This document shows positions 7,248 to 37,691 of a stretch of DNA of 64,000 nt, piece by piece. The stretch lies in the NCBI RefSeq assembly GCF_900215535.1, contig NZ_OCND01000004.1:186001-250000 (forward strand). The letters are read 5' to 3'. The notes beneath the pieces are model-generated. The model did not search any database and had not been told where the DNA came from. It was given only the letters and a program-made list of their open reading frames with translations. Within the stretch, counting starts at the first letter, position 1, and each line of letters begins with the position of its first letter. Made by a program: the position numbers and the translations under genes. Origin of the DNA: Pseudoxanthomonas wuyuanensis. Lineage in GTDB: Bacteria; Pseudomonadota; Gammaproteobacteria; Xanthomonadales; Xanthomonadaceae.

Positions 7248-8327
7248 TCAGTTCTGGACGTTCAGCTCCGTGCGACGGTTGCGGGCACGGCCTTCAGCGG
7301 TTTCGTTGGTGTCGATCGGGCGGCTTTCGCCGTAGCCGTTCGGGCCAACCAGACGCGAAGCGTCCACGCCGTTGCTGGTCAGGTAGTCGTACACGGCCTT
7401 GGCGCGACGCTCGGACAGGCCCTGGTTGTAGGCGTCGGTACCGACCGAGTCGGTGTGGCCGGCGACTTCAACGCGCAGATCCGGGTAACGCTTCAGGATT
7501 TCGGTGGCTTCGCTCAGGATGGCGACCGCATCAGGACGCAGGGTCGACTTGTCGAAGTCGAAGTTGACGCCCTTCAGGTCGATCGACACCGGCACCGGGC
7601 AGCCGTCCGGACCGATGGTCTGGCCAGCCTGCGAACCGGGGCAACGATCGTCGCAGTTGTTGACGCCGTCGCCGTCGTCATCCAGGTCCGCGCAGCTCGG
7701 GCCAGCCGGAGCCGGAGCCGGCGGCGGAGCAACAGTCGCCTTCGGGCCCAGCGGGATGATCACGCCGACCGAAGCCAGCACGTCGCCGAACCAGCTTTCG
7801 TCCGGGGCGGCTACGCTGGAGTCGTCGAAATCGGCGCGGTAGGCGATTTCGGCACGCACGCCGACGCGCTTGTCCAGGGTGGTCTGCAGACCGACGCCGA
7901 CCTTGGCAGCCAGGTTGCCGTCTTCGCGCTCACCCGGGGAGTCCGGGCTCGGGAAGTTGTCGAATTCTTCTTCCGAACGCTGGTAGCCCAGGCCGGCCAG
8001 GATGTACGGGTTCCAGCCGCGGCCTTCCTGGATGAAGTGGCGACGCAAATCCAGCGAGATGCCGTACTGGCTCCAGTTCAGATCCTTGTTGGCGTCGAAG
8101 TTCGGGTTCTGATAGTTCAGCTCGCCGTCCAGCGACCAGTTAGGGCTGATGAACTTGCCCAGGCCCAGGCCCAGGAACGGGGCGTCGTTGGTGGTGCGAT
8201 CGCTATCCTGCAGGTTGAAACCGGTGGAACCGGTCAGGTACCAGCGGTCATCGAACTCCTGAGCGGAAGCGGCCTGCGCCACACCCAGACCGCACAGCAT
8301 GGCGGCACAGAGAAGTTTCTTGTTCAT
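7248..8327 (-). CDS. OmpA-family outer membrane porin with thrombospondin type 3 repeat
   Basis: Outer membrane protein anchoring the envelope to peptidoglycan, 359 residues. Signal peptide ends at ASAQ (about residue 23). Residues 25-195 form the eight-stranded beta-barrel, ending in a valine/isoleucine-rich strand; a Pro/Ala linker follows; then a calcium-binding thrombospondin type 3-like segment DDDGDGVNNCDDRCPGS with two cysteines; then the OmpA C-terminal peptidoglycan-binding domain (FDFDKSTLRPDA, VEVAGHTDSVGTDAYNQGLS, RRTELNV). Monocistronic with its own terminator. The 190-base upstream region is unusually AT-rich, fitting a strong promoter and a long mRNA leader. Confidence 0.93.
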   Translation of the reverse strand: MNKKLLCAAMLCGLGVAQAASAQEFDDRWYLTGSTGFNLQDSDRTTNDAPFLGLGLGKFISPNWSLDGELNYQNPNFDANKDLNWSQYGISLDLRRHFIQEGRGWNPYILAGLGYQRSEEEFDNFPSPDSPGEREDGNLAAKVGVGLQTTLDKRVGVRAEIAYRADFDDSSVAAPDESWFGDVLASVGVIIPLGPKATVAPPPAPAPAGPSCADLDDDGDGVNNCDDRCPGSQAGQTIGPDGCPVPVSIDLKGVNFDFDKSTLRPDAVAILSEATEILKRYPDLRVEVAGHTDSVGTDAYNQGLSERRAKAVYDYLTSNGVDASRLVGPNGYGESRPIDTNETAEGRARNRRTELNVQN

Positions 8328-8516
8328 TTGCAGCTCCTTTGAAAATCAGGTGGTAAGAAAAACCGAAGTACGTTGTTGTAGTTGTTCCAGCTTTCTTATT
8401 GGTTCGCCCAGACGGCTTTATAACTGCCGGCCATCCTGAACAGATTATGCTTGAGCAGGTGAAGACAGTGTTAACGGTACTATAACAAGTCCGGCGGACC
8501 GACAACTGTCGCAGCA
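8328..8516 (-). promoter_or_regulatory. AT-rich leader/promoter region of the OmpA-family gene
   Basis: 189 bases between the prpD stop and the porin start, distinctly richer in A+T than the surroundings. On the minus strand a TATAAA (around 8418-8423) could serve as a -10 box, giving a leader of about 90 bases. A Shine-Dalgarno AAGGAG lies about 8 bases before the ATG. Exact boxes are uncertain. Confidence 0.4.
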
Positions 8517-9968
8517 TCAACCCGCCCGATACAGATCCATGAACGTCTGCACCGGCACCGCGTCCAGCCTGGCCGGTTCGGCCGCCAGGGCCAGCAGCCG
8601 GTCGACCTGCGCCGGCGGCAGATGGGCCCGCAGCGCGGCCTGGTACTTGGCCATCAGCAGCGGGATGCCTTCGGCCCGGCGCCTGCGGTGACCGATGGGG
8701 TAGTCCACCGAAATCTTGCCGGTCGAGCTGCCATCCTGGAAGAACACCTGCACCGCGTTGCCGATATAACGCTTGTCCGGGTCGCCATAGTCGCGGGTGA
8801 ACTGCGGGTTTTCCCTTACCTCCATCAGGTCGCGCAAGGCATCGATTCGCGGGTCGGCCGCCACCGCGTCAGTGTAATCGTCCGCGGTCAGGCGGCCGAA
8901 GATCAGTGGCACCGCCACCATGTATTGGAGGCAGTGATCGCGGTCGGCATGGTTGGCCAGCGGGCCGGTCTTGTCGATGATGCGGATGCCGGCTTCCTGG
9001 GTTTCGATGACGATCCTTTCGATCTGGTCCAGCCGCTGCCTGACCTGCGGGTGCAGGGCCATCGCGCATTCCACCGCGGTCTGGGCGTGGAATTCGGCCG
9101 GGAAACTGATCTTGAACAGCACGTTCTCCATTACGTAGCTGCTAAAGGGGCGCTCGAACCGGAAGGGCTTGCCGCCGAAGGCCACGTCATAGAAACCCCA
9201 GGTCGGCACGCTCAACGCACTGGGGTAGCCGGCCTCGCCATTGACCGCGTTCAGCGCATGGATGACCGCGCGCCGGCAGGCGTCGCCGGCCGCCCAGCTC
9301 TTGCGCGGCCCGGTGTTCGGCGCGTGGCGGTAGGTACGCAGTACGCCGTTGTCGATCCAGCTGTGCGACACCGCGTTGGCGATCTGCGCCTTGCTGCCGC
9401 CTAGCAGGCGGGTGGTTACTGCGGTCGAGGCAAGCCGGACCAGGATCACATGATCCAGGCCGACCCGGTTGAACGAGTTCTGCAGCGCATAGCCGCCCTG
9501 GATTTCATGCGCCTTGATGGCGGCGGTGAGTACGTCGCGCACGGTCAGCGGGACCCCGCCTTCGCGTTGGGCCTTGCGGCTCAGATAGTCGGCGACCGCC
9601 AGGATCGCCCCCAGATTGTCCGACGGATGGCCCCACTCGGCGGCCAGCCAGGTGTCGTTGAAATCCAGCCAGCGGATCTGGGCGCCAATGGCGAACGCCG
9701 CCTGCACCGGATCCAGCTCATGCGAGGTGCCGGGAACCGGCACGCCTCCGGCCATGCCGGCGCCGGGGACCACTGGTCCCAGATGCCTGACGCAGTCGGG
9801 GAACTTCATCGCCAGCATCGCGCAGGCCAGCGAGTCCAGCAGCATGTAGCGGGCGGTGTCGTAGGCCTCCTGCGAATCGATCCGGTAGTCGCTCACGTAG
9901 TCTGCAATCTCGACCATTGGCGGGTCGAAACGGGGACGGGCGGCGGAACGGAGATCGAAGTGGCTCAT
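8517..9968 (-). CDS. prpD: 2-methylcitrate dehydratase PrpD
   Basis: Dehydrates 2-methylcitrate to 2-methyl-cis-aconitate in the methylcitrate cycle that oxidises propionyl-CoA. 483 residues, the usual PrpD length. Conserved blocks include IRWLDFNDTWLAAEWGHPSD, AIKAHEIQG, SFNRVGLDHV, LRTYRHAPNTGPRKSWAAGD and SFPAEFHAQTAVE, all diagnostic of true PrpD rather than other MmgE/PrpD-family proteins. It stands alone here, about 18 kb from prpB, prpC, acnD and prpF, which encode the alternative route for the same step. Confidence 0.95.
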   Translation of the reverse strand: MSHFDLRSAARPRFDPPMVEIADYVSDYRIDSQEAYDTARYMLLDSLACAMLAMKFPDCVRHLGPVVPGAGMAGGVPVPGTSHELDPVQAAFAIGAQIRWLDFNDTWLAAEWGHPSDNLGAILAVADYLSRKAQREGGVPLTVRDVLTAAIKAHEIQGGYALQNSFNRVGLDHVILVRLASTAVTTRLLGGSKAQIANAVSHSWIDNGVLRTYRHAPNTGPRKSWAAGDACRRAVIHALNAVNGEAGYPSALSVPTWGFYDVAFGGKPFRFERPFSSYVMENVLFKISFPAEFHAQTAVECAMALHPQVRQRLDQIERIVIETQEAGIRIIDKTGPLANHADRDHCLQYMVAVPLIFGRLTADDYTDAVAADPRIDALRDLMEVRENPQFTRDYGDPDKRYIGNAVQVFFQDGSSTGKISVDYPIGHRRRRAEGIPLLMAKYQAALRAHLPPAQVDRLLALAAEPARLDAVPVQTFMDLYRAG

Positions 9969-28206: not shown

Positions 28207-29400
28207 TCAGAACGAATCGCCCGGCACGCGCACCACGCCTTCCATCAGCACACGGGCGCTGCGGCTCATGATGGCCTTGGTCGCCGACCACTGGCCATCC
28301 GCCAACTTCAGTTCCGCGCCGACACGCAAGGTGCCGGACGGGTGACCAAACACCACCACCTCACGCGTGCCGCCCCCGGCCGCGGCATTGACCACCGTGC
28401 CGGGCACGGCGGCGGCGGCGGCGATGGCGACCGAGGCGGTTCCCATCATCGCGTGGTGCAGCTTGCCCATCGACATGGCCCGCGCCAGCAGATCGATGTC
28501 GGCCGCGCGGACCGGCTTGCCGCTTGATGACAGGTAGTCCTTCGGCGGCGCGACGAAGGCGATCTTCGGCGTCAGCGGGCGTGCCGCCGCCTGTGCGGCA
28601 TCCGCCACCAGGCCCATCCGCACTGCACCGTGGGCGCGGATCGCTTCCAGCTTCGCCAGTGCGGCCTTGTCCTCGTTGATGGCACCCTGCAGCTCGGTGC
28701 CGTCGTAACCCAGTGCGGCGGCATCGACAAAAACCACCGGCACCCCGGCATTGATCATCGTGGCCCTGAAGATGCCTACGCCGGGCACGTCGAGATCGTC
28801 GACGAGGTTGCCGGTCGGGAACATGGCCCCCCCTCCTTCGCCTTCACCCTCGTCGGCGGGATCGATGAACTCCAGTTGCACTTCCGCCGCCGGGAATGTC
28901 ACCCCGTCCAGTTCGAAATCGCCGGTTTCCTGGACTGCACCATCGGTCACCGGCACATGCGCAACGATGGTCTTGCCGATGTTGGCCTGCCAGATGCGCA
29001 CCGTGCACAGGCCGTTCTCGGGAACGCGCGCCGGATCGATCATGCCATTGGCAATGGCGAACGGACCGACCGCCGACGACAGATTGCCGCAGTTGCCGCT
29101 CCAGTCGATGAAGGCATCGTTGATCGGCACCTGGCCGTACAGGTAATCCACGTCATGCCCGGGCTGCGCGGATTTGGCGATGATCACCACCTTGCTGGTG
29201 CTGGACGTCGCCCCACCCATGCCATCGGTGTGCTTGCCGTAGGGATCGGGCGAACCGATCACCCGCAGCAGCAGCGCATCGCGCGCCGGCCCAGGCGCCT
29301 GTGCGCGCGCGGGCAGGTCCTCCAGGCGGAAGAACACGCCCTTGCTGGTGCCGCCGCGCATGTAGGTGGCGGGGATGCGGAGTTGGGGGGGATGGCTCAT
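28207..29400 (-). CDS. prpF: 2-methylaconitate cis-trans isomerase PrpF
   Basis: Isomerises the 2-methyl-trans-aconitate made by AcnD to the cis form used by the methylcitrate cycle. 397 residues from the ATG reading MSHPPQLRIPATYMRGGTSK, the conserved PrpF N-terminus (lysine of RGGTSK is catalytic). GNCGNLSSAVGPFAI contains a second conserved cysteine region. PrpF has two diaminopimelate-epimerase-like domains. Last gene of prpB-prpC-acnD-prpF, 96 bases after acnD. Confidence 0.95.
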   Translation of the reverse strand: MSHPPQLRIPATYMRGGTSKGVFFRLEDLPARAQAPGPARDALLLRVIGSPDPYGKHTDGMGGATSSTSKVVIIAKSAQPGHDVDYLYGQVPINDAFIDWSGNCGNLSSAVGPFAIANGMIDPARVPENGLCTVRIWQANIGKTIVAHVPVTDGAVQETGDFELDGVTFPAAEVQLEFIDPADEGEGEGGGAMFPTGNLVDDLDVPGVGIFRATMINAGVPVVFVDAAALGYDGTELQGAINEDKAALAKLEAIRAHGAVRMGLVADAAQAAARPLTPKIAFVAPPKDYLSSSGKPVRAADIDLLARAMSMGKLHHAMMGTASVAIAAAAAVPGTVVNAAAGGGTREVVVFGHPSGTLRVGAELKLADGQWSATKAIMSRSARVLMEGVVRVPGDSF

Positions 29401-29496
29401 GGCGGGGTATCGAACTTGAAGAGAATGGTTGAAGCACACAATGAAGCCGCTGGACAACCGGATCCGGAGCCCGCGTCGTGGCAGGGCCGAAGCCGG

Positions 29497-32115
29497 TCAG
29501 GCGGCCTTGGCGGCATCCAGGAAATCCTGCGCGAAGCGCTGCAGCACGCCGCCAGCCTCGTAGATCGAGACGTCCTCGTCCGAATCCAGCCGGCAGATCA
29601 CCGGCGCCTGCGCAGTCGTGCCGTCCTTGCGGCGGATGACCAGGGTCAGTTCGGCGCGCGGCGTACGTTCGCCAATCACGTCAAAGGTTTCGCTGCCGTC
29701 GATGCCCAGCGTCTTGCGGGTGGTGCCGGGCAGGAATTCCAGCGGCAGTACGCCCATGCCGATCAGGTTGGTGCGATGGATACGCTCGAAGCCCTCGGCG
29801 ACGATCGCTTCCACGCCCGCCAGGCGCACGCCCTTGGCCGCCCAGTCGCGCGAGGACCCCTGGCCGTAGTCGGCGCCGGCGACGATGATCAGCGGCTGCT
29901 TGCGCGCCATATAGGTTTCGATCGCCTCCCACATGCGCATGACCTTGCCTTCCGGCTCCACCCGCGCCAGCGAACCCTGCTTCACGCTGCCGTCCTGGTT
30001 GCGCACCATCTCGTTGAACAGCTTGGGATTGGCGAACGTGGCGCGCTGCGCGGTCAGGTGATCGCCGCGATGGGTGGCGTAGGAATTGAAGTCTTCTTCC
30101 GGCAGGCCCATCCTGGCCAGGTATTGGCCTGCGGCGCTGTCCAGCAGAATCGCATTGGACGGCGACAGGTGATCGGTGGTGATGTTGTCCGGCAGTACCG
30201 CCAGCGGACGCATGCCGCGCAGCGCGCGTTCGCCGGCCAGCGCGCCTTCCCAGTACGGCGGGCGGCGGATGTAGGTGCTCTGCGGCCGCCAGGCGTACAG
30301 CGGTTCCACCTTGCCACCGTGCTCCACGCGCACATTGAACATCGGCTCGTAGACCTTGCGGAACTGCTCGGGCTTGACGCTCTGCCTGACGATGGCATCG
30401 ATCTCTTCGTCGGCGGGCCAGATATCCTTCAGCGTGATGGCGTTGCCCTGCCCGTCGTAACCCAGCGCATCCTTTTCGATGTCGAAGCGCACCGTGCCGG
30501 CGATGGCGTAGGCGATCACCAGCGGAGGCGAGGCCAGGAAGGCCTGCTTGGCGTAGGGATGGATGCGGCCGTCGAAGTTGCGGTTGCCCGACAGCACGGC
30601 AGTGGCATACAGATCGCGCTCGATGATTTCCTGCTGGATCTGCGGGTCCAGCGCGCCGCTCATGCCATTGCAGGTGGTGCAGGCGAAACCGACGATGCCA
30701 AAGCCCAACCGCTCCAGCTCCGGCAGCAGGCCGGCATCCTCCAGGTACAGCTGCACCGCCTTCGAACCGGGCGCCAGCGAGGTCTTCACCCATGGCTTGC
30801 GCACCAGACCCCTGGCGTTGGCATTGCGCGCCAGCAGGGCGGCGGCGATGACGTTGCGCGGGTTGCTGGTGTTGGTGCAACTGGTGATGGCGGCGATGAT
30901 CACCGCGCCATCCGGCATCAGGCCCTGCGCTTCCTCGCCCCTGCCCGCCTCCAGCTTCGCTTCGTCGGCGATGCCGCGTTCGGCCAGCGCGCTGGTCGGC
31001 AGCCGCTTGTGCGGATTCGACGGCCCGGCCATGTTGCGCACGACCGTGGACAGATCGAACTGCAGCGTGCGCTCGTACTGCGCGGTCTTAAGCGCATCGG
31101 CCCACAGGCCGGCGGTCCTGGCATAGGTCTCCACCAGTGCCACCTGCTCGTCGCTGCGGCCGGTCAGGCGCAGGTAGTCCAGCGTGTTGCCGTCGATGAA
31201 GAACATCGCTGCGGTGGCGCCGTACTCGGGCGCCATGTTGGAGATCGTGGCGCGGTCGCCGATGGTCAGCGCCGCGGCGCCTTCGCCGCGGAATTCCAGC
31301 CAGGCGCCGACGACCTTCTGCGCACGCAGGAACTCGGTCAGCGCCAGCACCACGTCGGTGGCGGTGATGCCCGGCTGCGGCCGTCCGGAAAGTTCGACGC
31401 CGATGATGTCCGGCAAGCGCATCCACGACGCGCGGCCCAGCATGACGTTCTCCGCCTCCAGCCCGCCCACGCCAATGGCGATCACGCCCAGCGCATCGAC
31501 ATGCGGCGTGTGGCTGTCGGTGCCGACGCAGGTGTCGGGAAACGCGACGCCTTCCTGCACGTAGATCACCGGCGACATCTTCTCCAGGTTGATCTGGTGC
31601 ATGATGCCGTTGCCGGGCGGGATGACATCCACGTTCTGGAAGGCGCGCCGGGTCCACTCGATGAAGTGGAAGCGGTCCTCGTTGCGGCGGTCCTCGATGG
31701 CACGGTTCCTGGCGAAGGCCTCCGGGTCGTAACCGCCGCATTCCACCGCCAGCGAGTGGTCGACGATCAACTGCACCGGCACCACCGGATTGACCTTGGC
31801 CGGATCCCCGCCCTGCTCCGCAATCGCATCGCGCAGCCCGGCCAGATCCACCAGCGCCGTCTGCCCCAGGATGTCATGGCAGACCACGCGCGCCGGGAAC
31901 CAGGGAAAGTCCAGATCGCGCCTGCGCTCGATCAGCTGCTTCAGCGACTCGGTCAATGCCGCCGGGTCGCAACGGCGCACCAGGTTTTCGGCCAGCACGC
32001 GCGAGCTGTAAGGCAGGGAGGCATAGGCGCCGGGCTGGATGGCATCGACCGCAGCCTCCGCGTCGAAATAGTCCAGCGAGGTGCCCGGCAGGGGTTTGCG
32101 ATATGAGCGGTTCAT
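29497..32115 (-). CDS. acnD: 2-methylcitrate dehydratase (Fe/S-dependent), AcnD
   Basis: Aconitase-family iron-sulfur enzyme that dehydrates 2-methylcitrate, giving the trans isomer that PrpF corrects. 872 residues. [4Fe-4S] ligands: Cys in ITSCTNTSNPRN and the pair in CTTCNGMSG. Swivel domain carries GADYGQGSSRDWAAKG. The N-terminus YRKPLPGTSLDYFDAEAAVD is the AcnD form rather than AcnA. A long antisense reading frame covers the whole gene and is a compositional shadow. Confidence 0.95.
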   Translation of the reverse strand: MNRSYRKPLPGTSLDYFDAEAAVDAIQPGAYASLPYSSRVLAENLVRRCDPAALTESLKQLIERRRDLDFPWFPARVVCHDILGQTALVDLAGLRDAIAEQGGDPAKVNPVVPVQLIVDHSLAVECGGYDPEAFARNRAIEDRRNEDRFHFIEWTRRAFQNVDVIPPGNGIMHQINLEKMSPVIYVQEGVAFPDTCVGTDSHTPHVDALGVIAIGVGGLEAENVMLGRASWMRLPDIIGVELSGRPQPGITATDVVLALTEFLRAQKVVGAWLEFRGEGAAALTIGDRATISNMAPEYGATAAMFFIDGNTLDYLRLTGRSDEQVALVETYARTAGLWADALKTAQYERTLQFDLSTVVRNMAGPSNPHKRLPTSALAERGIADEAKLEAGRGEEAQGLMPDGAVIIAAITSCTNTSNPRNVIAAALLARNANARGLVRKPWVKTSLAPGSKAVQLYLEDAGLLPELERLGFGIVGFACTTCNGMSGALDPQIQQEIIERDLYATAVLSGNRNFDGRIHPYAKQAFLASPPLVIAYAIAGTVRFDIEKDALGYDGQGNAITLKDIWPADEEIDAIVRQSVKPEQFRKVYEPMFNVRVEHGGKVEPLYAWRPQSTYIRRPPYWEGALAGERALRGMRPLAVLPDNITTDHLSPSNAILLDSAAGQYLARMGLPEEDFNSYATHRGDHLTAQRATFANPKLFNEMVRNQDGSVKQGSLARVEPEGKVMRMWEAIETYMARKQPLIIVAGADYGQGSSRDWAAKGVRLAGVEAIVAEGFERIHRTNLIGMGVLPLEFLPGTTRKTLGIDGSETFDVIGERTPRAELTLVIRRKDGTTAQAPVICRLDSDEDVSIYEAGGVLQRFAQDFLDAAKAA

Positions 32116-32226: not shown

Positions 32227-33381
32227 TCAGCCGCGCTGTTCGATCGGCACGAAGGCCAGGTCTTCCGGCCCGGTGTAGTTGGCGCTGGGGCGGATGATCT
32301 TGCCGTCGATGCGCTGCTCGATGACGTGCGCGCTCCAGCCGCTGGTGCGGGCGATCACGAACAGCGGCGTGAACATCGCCGTCGGCACGCCCATCATGTG
32401 GTAGCTGACCGCGCTGAACCAGTCCAGGTTGGGGAACATCTTCTTGATGTCCCACATCACCGATTCCAGCCGTTCGGCGATGGCGTACATCCTGGTGTTC
32501 TGCTGCTCCTCGGACAGGTCCCTGGCCACCTGCTTGATCACCTGGTTGCGCGGGTCGCCAACCGTATAGACCGGATGGCCGAAACCGATGACCACCTCCT
32601 TGCGTTCCACCCGCGCCTTGATGTCGGCCTCGGCCTCGTCCGGCGTTTCGTAGCGCTTCTGCACTTCGAACGCGACCTCGTTGGCGCCGCCATGCTTGGG
32701 GCCGCGCAACGCGCCGATGGCGCCGGCGATGCACGAATGCATGTCGCTGCCGGTGCCGGCGATCACGCGCGCGGTGAAGGTCGATGCATTGAACTCATGT
32801 TCGGCATAGAGAATCAGCGAGGTGTGCATGGCGCGCACCCACGAATCGCGCGGCTTCTCGCCGTGCAGCAGATGCAGGAAGTGGCCGCCGATGGAATCGT
32901 CATCGGTTTCCACATCGATGCGCTTGCCGTTGTGGCTGAAGTGGTACCAGTACAGCAGCATCGAGCCCAGCGAGGCCATCAGCTTGTCGGCGATATCGCG
33001 CGCGCCGGGATGGTTGTGGTCGTCCTTCTCCGGCGATACGCAGCCCAGCATCGACACCCCGGTGCGCATTACGTCCATCGGGTGCGCTGACGGCGGCAAC
33101 TGTTCCAGCGCGGCCTTCACCGCGGCCGGCACGCCGCGCAGCGCCTTCAGCTTGGCCTTGTAGCCGGCCAGTTCGGCGCGGCTGGGCAGCTTGCCGTGCA
33201 CCAGCAGGTAGGCGATCTCCTCGAACTCGCTGCTGGTGGCCAGGTCCAGGATGTCGTAGCCGCGGTAGTGCAGGTCGTTGCCGGTGCGGCCCACGGTGCA
33301 CAGCGCGGTATTGCCGGCGGCGGTGCCGGACAGGGCGACGGATTTTTTGGGTTTGAAAGCGGGTGCGGACGGTTCTGTCAT
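32227..33381 (-). CDS. prpC: 2-methylcitrate synthase PrpC
   Basis: Condenses propionyl-CoA with oxaloacetate to 2-methylcitrate. 384 residues from the ATG reading [19 protein letters not shown]. Catalytic residues of the citrate synthase family are present: His in [11 protein letters not shown], His in [13 protein letters not shown] and Asp in [15 protein letters not shown]. The short N-terminus and [17 protein letters not shown] are typical of PrpC versus GltA. It lies 131 bases after prpB, likely in the same transcript. Confidence 0.95.
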
Positions 33382-33512: not shown

Positions 33513-34415
33513 TCATTTCTTCGCTGCGAACAGCGCGTCGAGCTTCCGCTCGAAGTCGTGATAGCCGATGCGCTCGTACAGCTCCTCGCGCGTCTGCATG
33601 CTGTCGACCACATTCTGCTGATGGCCGTCGCGGCGGATGGCGGCGTAGACGGCTTCGGCCGCCTTGTTCATGGCGCGGAATGCCGACAGCGGGTAAAGCT
33701 GTATCGCCACACCGACCGAAGCCAGTTCCTCGCGGGTGAACAGCGGCGTCTTGCCGAACTCGGTGATGTTGGCCAGCACTGGCACTTTCACCGCATCGAC
33801 GAACCGCCGGTAGGTGGGCAGGTCGTAGGCGGCCTCGGCAAAGATGCCGTCGGCTCCGGCTTCGACGCAGGCGATGGCGCGCTCGATGGCCGCGTCCACG
33901 CCTTCCACCTGGATGGCATCGGTACGCGCTATCAGGAAGAACGCCGGATCGGTTTTCGCATCGGCAGCCGCTTTCACCCGGTCCACCATCTCATCGGCCG
34001 GCACGATTTCCTTGCCCGGGCGGTGGCCGCAGCGCTTGGCGCCCACCTGGTCCTCGATATGGCAGGCGGCAGCGCCGGCCTTGATCAGCGACTTGACCGT
34101 GCGCTCGATGTTGAACGCACTGGGCCCGAAGCCGGTGTCGATGTCGACCAGCAGCGGCAGATCGCAGACATCGGTGATGCGGCGCACGTCGATCAGAACG
34201 TCTTCCAGCGTATTGATGCCCAGGTCCGGCAGGCCCAGCGATCCGGCGGCCACGCCGCCGCCGGACAGGTAGATCGCGCGGTAACCGGCGCGTTTGGCCA
34301 GCAGCGCGTGATTGGCGTTGATCGCGCCGATCACCTGCAGCGGCGATTCGGCAGCGAGCGCGGCGCGGAACTTCGCTCCCGGGGAAGCGGCGACGCCAGC
34401 GGATGCGTTATTCAT
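33513..34415 (-). CDS. prpB: 2-methylisocitrate lyase PrpB
   Basis: Splits 2-methylisocitrate into pyruvate and succinate. 300 residues. Signature catalytic loop [12 protein letters not shown] (K-R-C-G-H) and metal-binding [13 protein letters not shown] are present. Shine-Dalgarno AGGAG precedes the ATG ([12 protein letters not shown]); the open frame further up was rejected. First gene of the prp operon, starting 112 bases from the palindromic site shared with the divergent HTH-citrate synthase gene. Confidence 0.95.
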
Positions 34416-34527
34416 GCAACAGGACTCCTCTTGAGCGGCGTGTGCGCCCCGGCCTGACCCGCCGGGGCAGTAGAGGTGCGCGAATGGTACGCCCCTCGGC
34501 GGGCGCCAATCTGGCAGCATCCCATCC

Positions 34528-34551
34528 ATTGATCAATCTTGATCCAATCAA
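34528..34551. promoter_or_regulatory. Palindromic operator candidate between prpB and the HTH-citrate synthase gene
   Basis: Two adjacent AT-rich inverted repeats, ATTGATCAAT (34528-34537, perfect) and TTGAT-CCA-ATCAA (34539-34551, perfect arms), are followed by a further TCAAT. This cluster of TTGAT/ATCAA half-sites in GC-rich DNA, 15 bases before the regulator-like gene and over 100 before prpB, looks like a binding site for the divergent HTH protein. Not experimentally known to me. Confidence 0.55.
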
Positions 34552-34565
34552 TCAATATATCCGGC

Positions 34566-35783
34566 ATGGACACCGACCTGCTTTCCGCCCGCGAGACCTG
34601 CCGGCTGCTCGGCATCAGCCAGGCCACGCTGTACGCCTATGTCAGCCGTGGCCTGCTGGAATCGCGGCCCGGCCCCGATCACCGTAGCCGGCTGTACCCG
34701 CGGCAGGACGTGGAACGGCTGGCACAGCGCAAACGCGCCGGCCGCGGCGCGGCACGCGGCGCAGCCCAAAGCCTGGACCGCGGATTGCCGGTGCTGGAGA
34801 CGCAGATCTCGCTGATCCGGCCGGATGGGCCCTATTACCGCGGCCGCTCCGCGGTGGAAGCGGTGCGGACCGGCGCCACGCTGGAAGACATTGCCCGGCT
34901 GCTGTGGGACTGCGGCGAGCACGATCCCTTCGCCGTCGAGGTCGATGGCAACTGGCCGGCCACGGTCGCCACGATAGCCGGCAACGAACGCCTACCGCCG
35001 CTGGCCCGTGCCATGGCCGCCATCCCGCTGCTGGCGCTGGATGTGCAGCACTCGTTCAACTCGGCCCCACGCGTACGCCATGAAATCGCCGCCGCGCTGC
35101 TGCGCCACAACGCCGCCCTGCTGGTCGCGCAGCCGCCGTTCGCCGGCCCGGTGCATCGGCTGCTGGCGCAATGCTGGAAGCCGGACGACGAAGGTTTCGC
35201 CGAACTGGTGCGCGCCGCGCTGGTCGTCTGCGCCGATCACGAATTGAACGTGTCGGCGTTCGCGGCGCGCGTGGTGGCCTCCACCGGCGCGCACCTGCAC
35301 GCCACCGTGTGCAGCGGCCTGGCTGCATTGTCCGGCCCGCGCCATGGCGGCGCGACCGCGCGCGCCTATGCTCTGATTGCCGATGCGCGCGAGGCCGGCT
35401 CGGCACGCGACTTCATCGCCATGCGCTGGCAGCGCGGCGACGACCTGCCCGGTTTCGGCCACGCGATGTATCCGCATGGCGACCCGCGCGCCGCGGAACT
35501 GCTGCCGCGGCTGCGTGAACTGCATGCGGGATCGCCGATGCTGGAATCGCTGGAAACGATCATTGCCGCCACCGAGGACATCAGCGGCCAGCGGCCCAAT
35601 ATCGATTTCATGCTGGCTGCGATCTGCCACGCCAACGGATTGGCCGCCACGCCGGCGCTGGTCATGTTCGCGGCGGGACGACTGGCCGGCTGGCTGGCGC
35701 ATGCGCTGGAACAGCAGGCGCAGGGCCGGCTGATCCGGCCGCGCGCCCGCTATGCCGGCGTGGCGCCAGCGGAGCCCGCATAA
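34566..35783 (+). CDS. Helix-turn-helix / citrate synthase fusion protein, putative methylcitrate-cycle regulator
   Basis: 405 residues. Residues 4-55 form a MerR/excisionase-type HTH (LLSARETCRLLGISQATLYA, then an R-x-Y-P-R-Q-D-VERL wing), followed by an Arg/Ala/Gly linker and a citrate synthase fold (about 75-395). The synthase catalytic residues are all there: H260 (SGPRHGG), H299 (GFGHAMYP) and D347 (PNIDFML); H225 of ADHELN is also kept. So it may still bind oxaloacetate/acyl-CoA or citrate-like ligands. Divergent from prpB, ends 6 bases before the convergent prpE. Start chosen at ATG 34566; an upstream TTG (34539) lies inside the palindrome. No good Shine-Dalgarno is visible. Families of this architecture exist in databases as citrate synthase family proteins; a regulatory role is inference. 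Confidence 0.85.
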   Translation: MDTDLLSARETCRLLGISQATLYAYVSRGLLESRPGPDHRSRLYPRQDVERLAQRKRAGRGAARGAAQSLDRGLPVLETQISLIRPDGPYYRGRSAVEAVRTGATLEDIARLLWDCGEHDPFAVEVDGNWPATVATIAGNERLPPLARAMAAIPLLALDVQHSFNSAPRVRHEIAAALLRHNAALLVAQPPFAGPVHRLLAQCWKPDDEGFAELVRAALVVCADHELNVSAFAARVVASTGAHLHATVCSGLAALSGPRHGGATARAYALIADAREAGSARDFIAMRWQRGDDLPGFGHAMYPHGDPRAAELLPRLRELHAGSPMLESLETIIAATEDISGQRPNIDFMLAAICHANGLAATPALVMFAAGRLAGWLAHALEQQAQGRLIRPRARYAGVAPAEPA

Positions 35784-35789
35784 CGCGCG

Positions 35790-37691
35790 TCAGCTGCCGA
35801 CTTCGGGCCCGCGCAGCAGCGCCTTTTTCACTTCTTCCAGCGAGTTGGGGTCATCCAGCGTCGACAGGTCGCCCGGATCGGTGCCCTGCGCCAGCGCCTG
35901 CAGCGAACGGCGCAACAGCTTGCCCGAGCGCGTCTTCGGCAGCGCATTGACGATGTACACCCGCGCCGGCCGCGCCACCGCGCCCAGGCTCTGCTCCACC
36001 ACCTGGCGCATGCCGTTGGCAGCGGCGACCCGCTCGTGCGGTTCGTCGGTGTTCTGGCGCAAGGTGGCGAACACCACCGGCACCTGGCCCTTCAGTTCGT
36101 CGTACACGCCGATCACGGCGGCTTCGGCCACGCCGCCATAACCGGACACCGACTCCTCGATTTCGCGCGTGCCCAGGCGGTGGCCGGCGACATTGATGAC
36201 ATCGTCGGTACGCCCCAGGATGAAGGTGTAGCCGTCTTCGTCGCGGATCGCCCAGTCCAGCGAACTGTACAGCAGTTCCTTGAAATGGCTGAAGTAGCTG
36301 CTGATGAAGCGTTCGTCGTCGTTCCAGATGGTGGTCATGCAACCCGGCGGCAGCGGCGGCTGGATCACCAATACGCCCTTGGTATTGGCGGGGACTTCTT
36401 CGCCGGTGGCCTCGTCGATGATCTTCATCCGGTAGCCGAGGTTGGGGAATCCCGGCGAACCGAACTTCACCGGCTTCATGTCCAGCCCCGGCAGCAGCGA
36501 GAGCGCCGGCCAGCCGGTTTCGGTCTGCCAGTAGTTGTCGATGATGGGCTTGCCCAGGGCGTCGTGGATCCAGTTGGCGGTCGGCTCGTCCAGCGGTTCG
36601 CCAGCCAGGAACAGGTACTGCAGCTTCGACAGATCGTGATTGCGGATGAAGCCGACATCGTGTTTCTTCAGCACACGGATGGCCGTTGGCGAGGAGAACA
36701 TCGTGCGCACGCCGTACTTCTCGCACAGCGACCACCAGATGCCGGCATCGGGATTGATCGGCAGGCCTTCGTACAGCAGCGACGTGCAGCCGCCGATCAG
36801 CGGTCCGTAGACGTTGTACGAATGGCCTACCGCCCAGCCGACGTCCGAGGTGGAAAACATCGCCTGTCCAGGCGCGCAATCGAAGATCGTGCGCATGGAC
36901 AGCGCCAGCGCCACCGCATAGCCGCCGACATCGCGCTGCACGCCCTTGGGCTTGCCGGTGGTGCCGGAGGTGTACAGCAGGTAGCTGGGCTCGTTGGATT
37001 CCAGCCATTCCACCGCGACTTCCGCATCGCCCACTTCGGCGCGCAACGCGGCATAGTCCTCGTCGCGTCCCGGCACCTTGGGTTGGGCTGCGTCGAGACC
37101 GCGCGAAACGATCAACACCTTCGGCGGCGGCGATACCGATTCCGCGCAGGCCTGATCGACCAGCGGCTTGTACGCGATCACTTTGCCGCCGCGCATGCCG
37201 GCATCGGCGGCGATCAGCAGCTTCGGCTGCGCATCGTCGATGCGCAGCGCCAGGTTGTGCGCGGCGAATCCGCCAAACACCACCGAGTGCACCGCACCGA
37301 TGCGCGCGCAGGCAAGCATCGCGAATACCGCCTCGGCCATGTTGGGCATGTAGATGACCACCCGGTCGCCACGTCCGACGTCGAGCCGCTTCAGGATCGC
37401 AGCGAAAGCATTCACTTCGCGGTACAGCTCGGCATAGCTGATTTCGCGGGTGACACCGGTTTCGGTGGAGATGGCGACCAGCGCCAGCTGATCCGAACGC
37501 GCGGCCAGATGGCGGTCCACCGCGTTGTAGCAGAGGTTGGTTTGCCCGCCGACGAACCAGCGCCGGAACGGCGGGTTGGAATAATCCAGGATCCGCTGCG
37601 GCGGCTTGTGCCAATGGATGGCCTTGGCCTCCTCGCCCCAGAACGCCTCCGGTTGCTCCACCGAACGGCGATAGACGTCTTCGTAAGCCAT
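35790..37691 (-). CDS. prpE: Propionyl-CoA synthetase PrpE
   Basis: Activates propionate to propionyl-CoA with ATP, feeding PrpC. 633 residues. AMP-binding motif LLYTSGTTGKPKGVQRDVGG, adenylate motif DNYWQTETGWP, hinge region LGRTDDVINVAGHRLGTREIE and C-terminal LPKTRSGKLLRR with the lysine that is acetylated in this family. The DVGGYAVAL and FSTSDVGWAVGHSYNVYGPL versions favour PrpE over Acs. Separate from prpB-prpC-acnD-prpF: it has its own upstream region with two hairpins. Confidence 0.93.
   Translation of the reverse strand: MAYEDVYRRSVEQPEAFWGEEAKAIHWHKPPQRILDYSNPPFRRWFVGGQTNLCYNAVDRHLAARSDQLALVAISTETGVTREISYAELYREVNAFAAILKRLDVGRGDRVVIYMPNMAEAVFAMLACARIGAVHSVVFGGFAAHNLALRIDDAQPKLLIAADAGMRGGKVIAYKPLVDQACAESVSPPPKVLIVSRGLDAAQPKVPGRDEDYAALRAEVGDAEVAVEWLESNEPSYLLYTSGTTGKPKGVQRDVGGYAVALALSMRTIFDCAPGQAMFSTSDVGWAVGHSYNVYGPLIGGCTSLLYEGLPINPDAGIWWSLCEKYGVRTMFSSPTAIRVLKKHDVGFIRNHDLSKLQYLFLAGEPLDEPTANWIHDALGKPIIDNYWQTETGWPALSLLPGLDMKPVKFGSPGFPNLGYRMKIIDEATGEEVPANTKGVLVIQPPLPPGCMTTIWNDDERFISSYFSHFKELLYSSLDWAIRDEDGYTFILGRTDDVINVAGHRLGTREIEESVSGYGGVAEAAVIGVYDELKGQVPVVFATLRQNTDEPHERVAAANGMRQVVEQSLGAVARPARVYIVNALPKTRSGKLLRRSLQALAQGTDPGDLSTLDDPNSLEEVKKALLRGPEVGS

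Follow-up and report, generated by a model that had tools for sequence, protein, structure and literature searches.

A Probable One-Component Regulator with a Citrate Synthase-Fold Sensor at the Methylcitrate Locus of Pseudoxanthomonas wuyuanensis

Gene Content of the prp Locus

The analyzed part of the Pseudoxanthomonas wuyuanensis genome, a stretch of 64,000 nucleotides referred to below as the window, contains genes of the methylcitrate cycle. Four of them are located side by side on the minus strand: prpB, encoding methylisocitrate lyase (33513..34415; TIGR02317, 417.4 bits at a cut-off of 354.4), prpC, encoding 2-methylcitrate synthase (32227..33381; NF009006, 730.8 bits at a cut-off of 550), acnD, encoding 2-methylisocitrate dehydratase (29497..32115; above the TIGR02333 cut-off), and prpF, encoding 2-methylaconitate isomerase (28207..29457; above the TIGR02334 cut-off). 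The propionate-CoA ligase gene prpE (35790..37691; above the TIGR02316 cut-off) is found on the same strand, and each of the five genes passes its NCBIfam equivalog cut-off. Between prpB and prpE, an ATG-start ORF on the plus strand (34566..35783) encodes a protein of 405 amino acids, in which a helix-turn-helix (HTH) domain is joined to a citrate synthase (CS) domain, and which is proposed here as a regulator of the prp operon. As the initial annotation had it, this fusion gene is divergent to prpB-prpC-acnD-prpF and convergent with prpE; 6 bp separate its end (35783) from that of prpE (35790). Three genes with a CS domain (PF00285) were found in the genome: the fusion, prpC, and a gene on another contig (C19), which is taken as gltA.

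Domain Architecture of the Fusion Protein

The N-terminal part of the fusion is a MerR-like DNA-binding domain (residues 5–56, 34578..34733), matching the Pfam profiles HTH_17 (residues 5–56, 37.7 bits at a cut-off of 27) and MerR_1 (residues 7–54, 25.6 bits at a cut-off of 21.6); the score for PF00376 was 19.9 bits, under the cut-off of 28.2. The CS domain occupies residues 72–393 (34779..35744; Citrate_synt, PF00285, 218.4 bits at a cut-off of 27). Profile matches and residue numbering agree with the earlier claim that H260, H299, and D347 are kept in it, and H225, R308, R372, and R391 are present as well.

Relatives of the fusion were compared in two sets. The close set comprises 70 loci with 54.6–87.5% identity to the window fusion, no two proteins being identical; L034, L036, L040, L043, and L050 were removed as repeats of genomes under other identifiers, and L147, in which the fusion frame is N-terminally incomplete and the HTH is not in frame, was retained. 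The distant set comprises 43 loci (31–48% identity), namely L051 and those selected for their resemblance to the fusion at E up to 1e-40. HTH_17 and Citrate_synt were both matched in all 20 members of alignment A1 (E up to 0.001), the rows of which share the invariant HTH run TLYAYVSRG. A TLYAYVSR-like stretch occurs within the first 60 residues of 43/43 distant and 69/70 close proteins, the exception being L147. HTH_17 was found at E<0.001 in each of the ten distant members scanned, five of which (L154, L156, L169, L190, and L194) pass the curated cut-off.

The AlphaFold model of the fusion (pLDDT 80.6, pTM 0.78) consists of the HTH, a poorly predicted segment at residues 59–77 (pLDDT under 50), and the CS fold; the HTH is followed by helices 46–58 and 63–70 and then by the CS domain. 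In MerR regulators, the HTH is followed by a long coiled-coil helix for dimerisation. The fusion HTH resembles this family in scoring above the MerR_1 cut-off, but no such coiled coil is seen in the predicted structure, with the 59–77 region poorly predicted, and dimerisation would proceed via the CS domain. The 50 PDB matches listed in a fold search with the model are methylcitrate and citrate synthases, the best one being a methylcitrate synthase; as the query TM-scores are 0.59–0.69 with rmsd of 6–13, the relative placement of the model's parts is not to be trusted. The best PDB matches by sequence, those to Mycobacterium tuberculosis CitA (putative citrate synthase 2), cover the CS part only. 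CitA and the PrpC-type methylcitrate synthases are both filed as enzymes.

Distribution and Genomic Context

Fusion orthologues were identified in 44 of the 198 sampled genomes of the window's family (protein search, E<1e-150), in 43 of them in one piece and in G104 split over two contig pieces; the latter is counted among the carriers and stands outside the 70 close loci. Best matches in the other 154 genomes (~1e-21 to 1e-35) were like those of ordinary CS genes, or there was none (G120). Order-wide, the fusion was found in 33/250 genomes (E up to 1e-50), phylum-wide in 47/398 (E up to 1e-40), and in a plasmid collection 78 records match it. Where annotations are given among the 40 of these 78 matches that were listed, the plasmid relatives are called 'citrate synthase family protein', 'citrate synthase', or 'citrate/2-methylcitrate synthase'. 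On plasmid At of Agrobacterium fabrum C58 (L229, 2758–5134), the fusion ATU_RS25370 adjoins the divergent citrate synthase gene ATU_RS25365, both being annotated as enzymes.

Among the genes tested, divergent prpB is the nearest upstream match in 69 of the 70 close loci, and prpC was detected in 68; in the remaining locus, L143, acnD is nearest and prpF lies behind it. The close loci are mutually related and represent fewer than 70 independent events. A constant position beside prp genes, for which the initial annotation proposed a test, describes the close set (70/70) and not the 43 distant loci, which mostly face other organic-acid or CoA genes. A divergent CS homologue faces the fusion in 31/43 of them, as judged by PrpC match, and in L181, as judged by match to the fusion; the four partners scanned (L051, L156, L169, and L170) all exceed the cut-off of the citrate synthase subfamily model NF009005. 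A family III CoA-transferase occupies this place in L154, L159, L166, and L183 (the four scanned) and, by annotation, a CoA-transferase in Azospirillum. In L176 the opposite gene encodes a 2-hydroxyacid dehydrogenase, and in Comamonas the facing operon is annotated as encoding a 2-hydroxyacid dehydrogenase, a fumarylacetoacetate-hydrolase-family protein, an SDR, and a tricarboxylate-transport binding protein. Six loci (L164, L189, L190, L193, L194, and L195) were not assigned to any of these three classes; the gene opposite L190 is a methyltransferase-like ORF, and that opposite L194 belongs to the MipA family. The divergent position is thus constant and the partner genes change, which is regulator-like behavior.

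Identity of PrpC to that of the window is bimodal, ~69–75% or 85–94%, the split involving loci L041, L042, L047, L049, L103–L112, L145–L148, and L151–L153. PrpB identity is bimodal as well (~64–68% or 84–95%), in different loci. Gene replacements inside the operon are a possible explanation of both splits.

Operator-Like Element and Promoter Geometry

A conserved operator-like element is located upstream of the fusion (34529..34555, invariant core 34531–34543). It reads TTGATCAATCTTGATCCAATCAATCAA and has the form TTGATCAATCTTGAT-N7-ATCAA; an alternative TTG start of the fusion gene, at 34539, falls within it. The AT-rich palindrome cluster placed before the gene in the initial annotation (34528–34551) is real, its bounds being slightly off. 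Upstream of the fusion, 70/70 close loci have the invariant 13-mer GATCAATCTTGAT and, directly after it, N7-ATCAA or a version differing at one base; when the 17 specified bases are scored, 67 of these loci match 17/17 and three match 16/17. In the distant set, 39/43 loci (38–48% identity) match at least 14/17. Markov-shuffled upstream regions reached a maximum of 14 for the close set (1/1400) and of 13 for the distant set (of 860). Elsewhere within ±8 kb, the best score was 13 in the close loci, while scores of 14 and 16 were each seen in one distant locus (the latter in L193). A chance origin of the site is ruled out by the shuffles and by the genome-wide searches described below.

When one mismatch was allowed, the site was found in 44/198 family genomes, the same 44 that carry the fusion, and in 0/154 others; the reversed pattern, used as a control, gave no matches in the 198 genomes. 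The TTGAT/ATCAA palindromes are hence conserved, and site and gene co-occur without exception in the family. Each carrier genome has one site, apart from G087 with two, where the copies lie 218 bp apart upstream of a single fusion (L120; C1:2516824 and 2517042). In the window's genome the site is unique, the next best matches having three mismatches. When the pattern was searched for phylum-wide without regard to the fusion, 37/354 genomes matched, 35 of which are known carriers; 40 of the 47 known phylum carriers fell in this draw (counted by hand), and those without a match are G455, G546, G569, G652, and G656. In the two other matching genomes, no fusion was seen within the 12.0 kb (G438) and 3.4 kb (G639) surrounding the site, and these matches are taken as chance.

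The fusion upstream regions of four distant loci (L164, L193, L194, and L195) have no site at the level of at least 14/17. In L193, two copies (15 and 16 of 17) occur 2.7–2.9 kb upstream, before same-strand ORFs that possibly run on into the fusion, as judged from a crude ORF call. These copies (G719, second copy) are oppositely oriented and 171 bp apart, between genes that appear divergent in the same crude call. L164 (G546), where H299 is replaced by Gln, is followed downstream by a PrpE-like gene in the same orientation.

As the site adjoins the gene, co-occurrence alone could reflect co-inheritance; conservation of the site at 38–48% protein identity argues that co-inheritance is probably not the whole story, and the site is also retained in distant loci where the facing gene differs. 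Since the distant loci mostly face non-prp genes and 39/43 of them have the site, the regulator family would be broader than prp.

Position-by-position conservation in the 70 close loci predicts a promoter-like element for prpB on the minus strand (34508..34536), with the -35 hexamer TTGATC (34531–34536), a 17-bp spacer, and the extended -10 element TGC-CAGATT (34508–34513, TG at 34515–34516). The -35-like hexamer lies inside the operator-like element, at its edge, and is invariant by construction, being part of the anchoring motif. On the prp strand, positions 2 and 6 of the -10 element are A and T in 70/70 close loci, and the extended TG has T in 67/70 and G in 68/70. In 39 distant loci, the same -10 positions on the side of the facing gene are less regular (A in 32/39, T in 20/39), and the prp-side -10-like element is not clearly kept there. 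The rest of the site extends from the -35 upstream towards the fusion start codon, and in 12/43 distant loci the motif ends 1 nt from the fusion ATG. In MerR systems, the operator is inside a promoter spacer of 19–20 bp; the predicted prp-side spacer would be 17 bp, with the operator-like element at and beyond the putative -35. Such geometry suits an activator of prp that overlaps the -35 and would repress its own gene, the sign of regulation being read from sequence. Conservation of TGGCAC to the left of the operator also prompted consideration of a sigma-54 promoter, which was dropped, the GG-N10-GC spacing not being kept as judged by eye.

Known prp Regulators

The initial annotation stated that known prp regulators are absent from the locus, and this was found to be correct. 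No protein in the window's genome exceeds the cut-off of 499.2 for the sigma-54-dependent PrpR (Fis/NtrC type, TIGR02329), the best score being 299.6 bits, and the sole gene with the FCD domain of GntR-type regulators is on another contig (C20, the window being on C17), away from the prp locus. Among the 198 family genomes, PrpR is above the cut-off in 22, and the overlap with the 44 fusion carriers is zero; if the two were independent, 44 × 22 / 198 = 4.9 would be expected, ignoring relatedness. In one genus (g29), some species have the fusion and others PrpR. The two proteins are unrelated, yet PrpR is immediately divergent from prpB, that is, in the slot of the fusion, in five of the seven PrpR genomes with prpB coordinates to compare; in the other two (G022 and G067) it is ~3.5 kb from prpB.

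The prpB gene is above its cut-off in 192/198 family genomes, whereas both the fusion and PrpR are missing from 132/198, and the operon can therefore exist in the absence of the fusion. In ten genomes with neither regulator, the ORF upstream of prpB encodes a malate dehydrogenase-like protein (five), an acyl-CoA ligase (two), a DUF4189 protein, a TamA-like protein, or an unmatched product (one each); no known regulator was seen there by crude ORF calls, which short genes could escape.

Citrate Synthase Domain

H225, H260, H299, R308, D347, R372, R391, and R393 are kept in 71/71 close fusions (window included); except for R393, the PrpC rows share these residues, bar one row gapped at three of the positions. 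The shared residues presumably form the oxaloacetate/citrate site, as known from CS biochemistry. A pure sensor does not need the catalytic residues unless its pocket binds the same ligands. Differences from PrpC were also observed: the Gly before H299, present in 69/69 PrpC, is found in 47/71 fusions and replaced in 24/71. Four residues after H299, the fusions have Pro (69/71) and PrpC has Thr (69/69). The Lys or Arg at this position, which we take to contact the CoA phosphate, proved uninformative as a sign of inactivity when lost, as PrpC enzymes also do without it. The window fusion is far below the cut-off of every CS model compared, the best being NF009005 (163.7 bits at a cut-off of 332); NF009006 gave 123.3 bits at a cut-off of 550. 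Compared with the window proteins, the fusion has a median identity of 71.9%, vs. 90.7% for PrpB and 87.9% for PrpC, indicating that the fusion evolves faster than the prp enzymes.

In the CS-domain tree, a 100/100 branch separates the 62 fusions from PrpC, gltA, and the alphaproteobacterial partner CS. The tree comprises 92 rows, a subset, and came with long-branch warnings; moreover, the grouping is partly due to selection, as the distant set was picked by similarity to the fusion.

In two distant proteins, L194 and L195 (G455 and G782; fusion at ~7980–9180 after orientation), the catalytic triad is missing and the HTH is still detectable, as it is in L164 and L169, where H299 is changed to Gln and Asn, respectively. 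L194 and L195, which also lack the common site, could possibly represent a pure-sensor branch. Genes around L194 encode a MipA-family outer-membrane protein, a CitMHS transporter, a 2-hydroxyacid dehydrogenase, and DUF1302 and DUF1329 proteins. For the family as a whole, a binding-only sensor and a bifunctional enzyme both fit the observations.

Discussion

The regulatory role suggested for the fusion in the initial annotation gained support from the prp linkage in 70/70 close loci and from the conserved palindrome. We consider it probable (about 0.85) that the fusion is a transcription regulator acting at the operator-like element 34529–34555. The best reading is that of a one-component regulator family with a CS-fold sensor, which in P. 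wuyuanensis would control the methylcitrate operon and itself. We infer that the protein would form a dimer held together by the CS-fold domain, the N-terminal HTH domains of which would bind ATCAA-TC-TTGAT-N7-ATCAA in the intergenic region separating prpB from the divergent regulator gene. The CS pocket, with its oxaloacetate/citrate-binding residues intact, would serve as the sensor, the likeliest ligands being either 2-methylcitrate or the pair oxaloacetate and propionyl-CoA; 2-methylcitrate itself is a plausible ligand at slightly less than even odds. As the -35-like hexamer is at the edge of the element and the element covers the region where the regulator gene starts, ligand-dependent activation of prp with repression of the regulator's own gene is favored, by a narrow balance of probability. 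The alternative is simple repression of prp relieved by the ligand.

Other explanations differ in what the CS domain does and in what the element serves. The fusion may be a trigger enzyme, i.e., a DNA-binding protein with a functioning citrate or 2-methylcitrate synthase activity, its turnover or bound product setting the DNA-binding state, in analogy to PutA and BirA. This reading overlaps with that of a sensor-regulator and agrees with the seven active-site residues (H225, H260, H299, R308, D347, R372, and R391) kept in 71/71 close fusions and with the predicted fold, which matches methylcitrate and citrate synthases. However, the sequence scores far under the CS model cut-offs (e.g., NF009006, 123.3 bits at a cut-off of 550), the residue preceding H299 is no longer Gly in 24/71 fusions, the genome already has prpC and the presumed gltA, and the HTH remains detectable where the triad (L194 and L195) or H299 (L164 and L169) is altered; we regard it as rather unlikely. 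Public annotation, which labels plasmid-borne relatives as citrate synthase enzymes, would make the fusion an ordinary third citrate or methylcitrate synthase with a non-functional HTH, the element being a promoter or serving another regulator. Against this stand the confinement of the element within the family to fusion carriers (44/44 vs. 0/154), its persistence where the facing genes differ, and the invariant TLYAYVSRG run in the 20 rows of A1, and the explanation appears highly improbable.

It is also conceivable that the fusion is a regulator of its own gene only, or acts elsewhere, with prp under other control. The element does reach the start of the regulator gene, its motif ending 1 nt from the ATG in 12/43 distant loci, and a GntR-type FCD gene exists elsewhere in the genome. 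But the prp-side -10-like element is in register with the operator in the 70 close loci, the window's genome has a single good site, and fusion and PrpR do not overlap, which leaves this explanation quite improbable. Finally, a phylum-wide version of the proposed regulator can be imagined, in which a catalytically complete CS acts as a 'catalytic sensor', condensing or binding oxaloacetate and acyl-CoA. Domain closure on substrate or product would set the spacing of the HTH domains on a nearly invariant operator, and the operator would be kept during re-deployment between methylcitrate and other organic-acid or CoA genes. This extension is speculative, and we consider it unlikely to hold in full.

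One-component regulators with enzyme-like sensors are of a known kind; in the MocR/GabR regulators, an HTH is joined to an aminotransferase-like sensor. The fusion is similar to these in the reuse of an enzyme fold next to an HTH, but both the HTH and the fold differ, and no homology is claimed. At prp loci, the GntR-family PrpR of Pseudomonas likewise combines an HTH with a metabolite-binding domain; one report describes that of P. aeruginosa as a repressor and suggests 2-methylcitrate as its ligand (PMC9765439). Its ligand domain is of the FCD type, with the predicted site ATTGTCGACAAT (PMC9765439), whereas the fusion has a CS domain and gave no Pfam match to a GntR HTH or FCD profile up to E 0.1. 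In Xanthomonas citri, the sigma-54 PrpR acts as a repressor through a palindrome that it binds in the prpB promoter, and it did not respond to 2-methylcitrate in binding tests (PMC12153269). 'All analyzed Xanthomonadales' are said, with reference to earlier work, to use a Fis-type PrpR (PMC9765439); in contrast, PrpR is above the cut-off in 22 of the 198 sampled genomes of the window's family.

No description of an HTH-citrate synthase regulator was found in the open-licence literature searched. We take a regulator with a CS fold and a nearly invariant operator to be new and, as far as this literature shows, previously undescribed, and we know of no earlier case of this fold as a transcriptional sensor. 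If the proposed role is true, it would be the first such case as far as known, and the predicted operator makes the idea testable. Many Pseudomonadota genes annotated as citrate synthase would then be gene switches, and their annotation and the metabolic models built with them would have to be corrected. For the Xanthomonadales without PrpR, the fusion would provide a regulator of the methylcitrate cycle.
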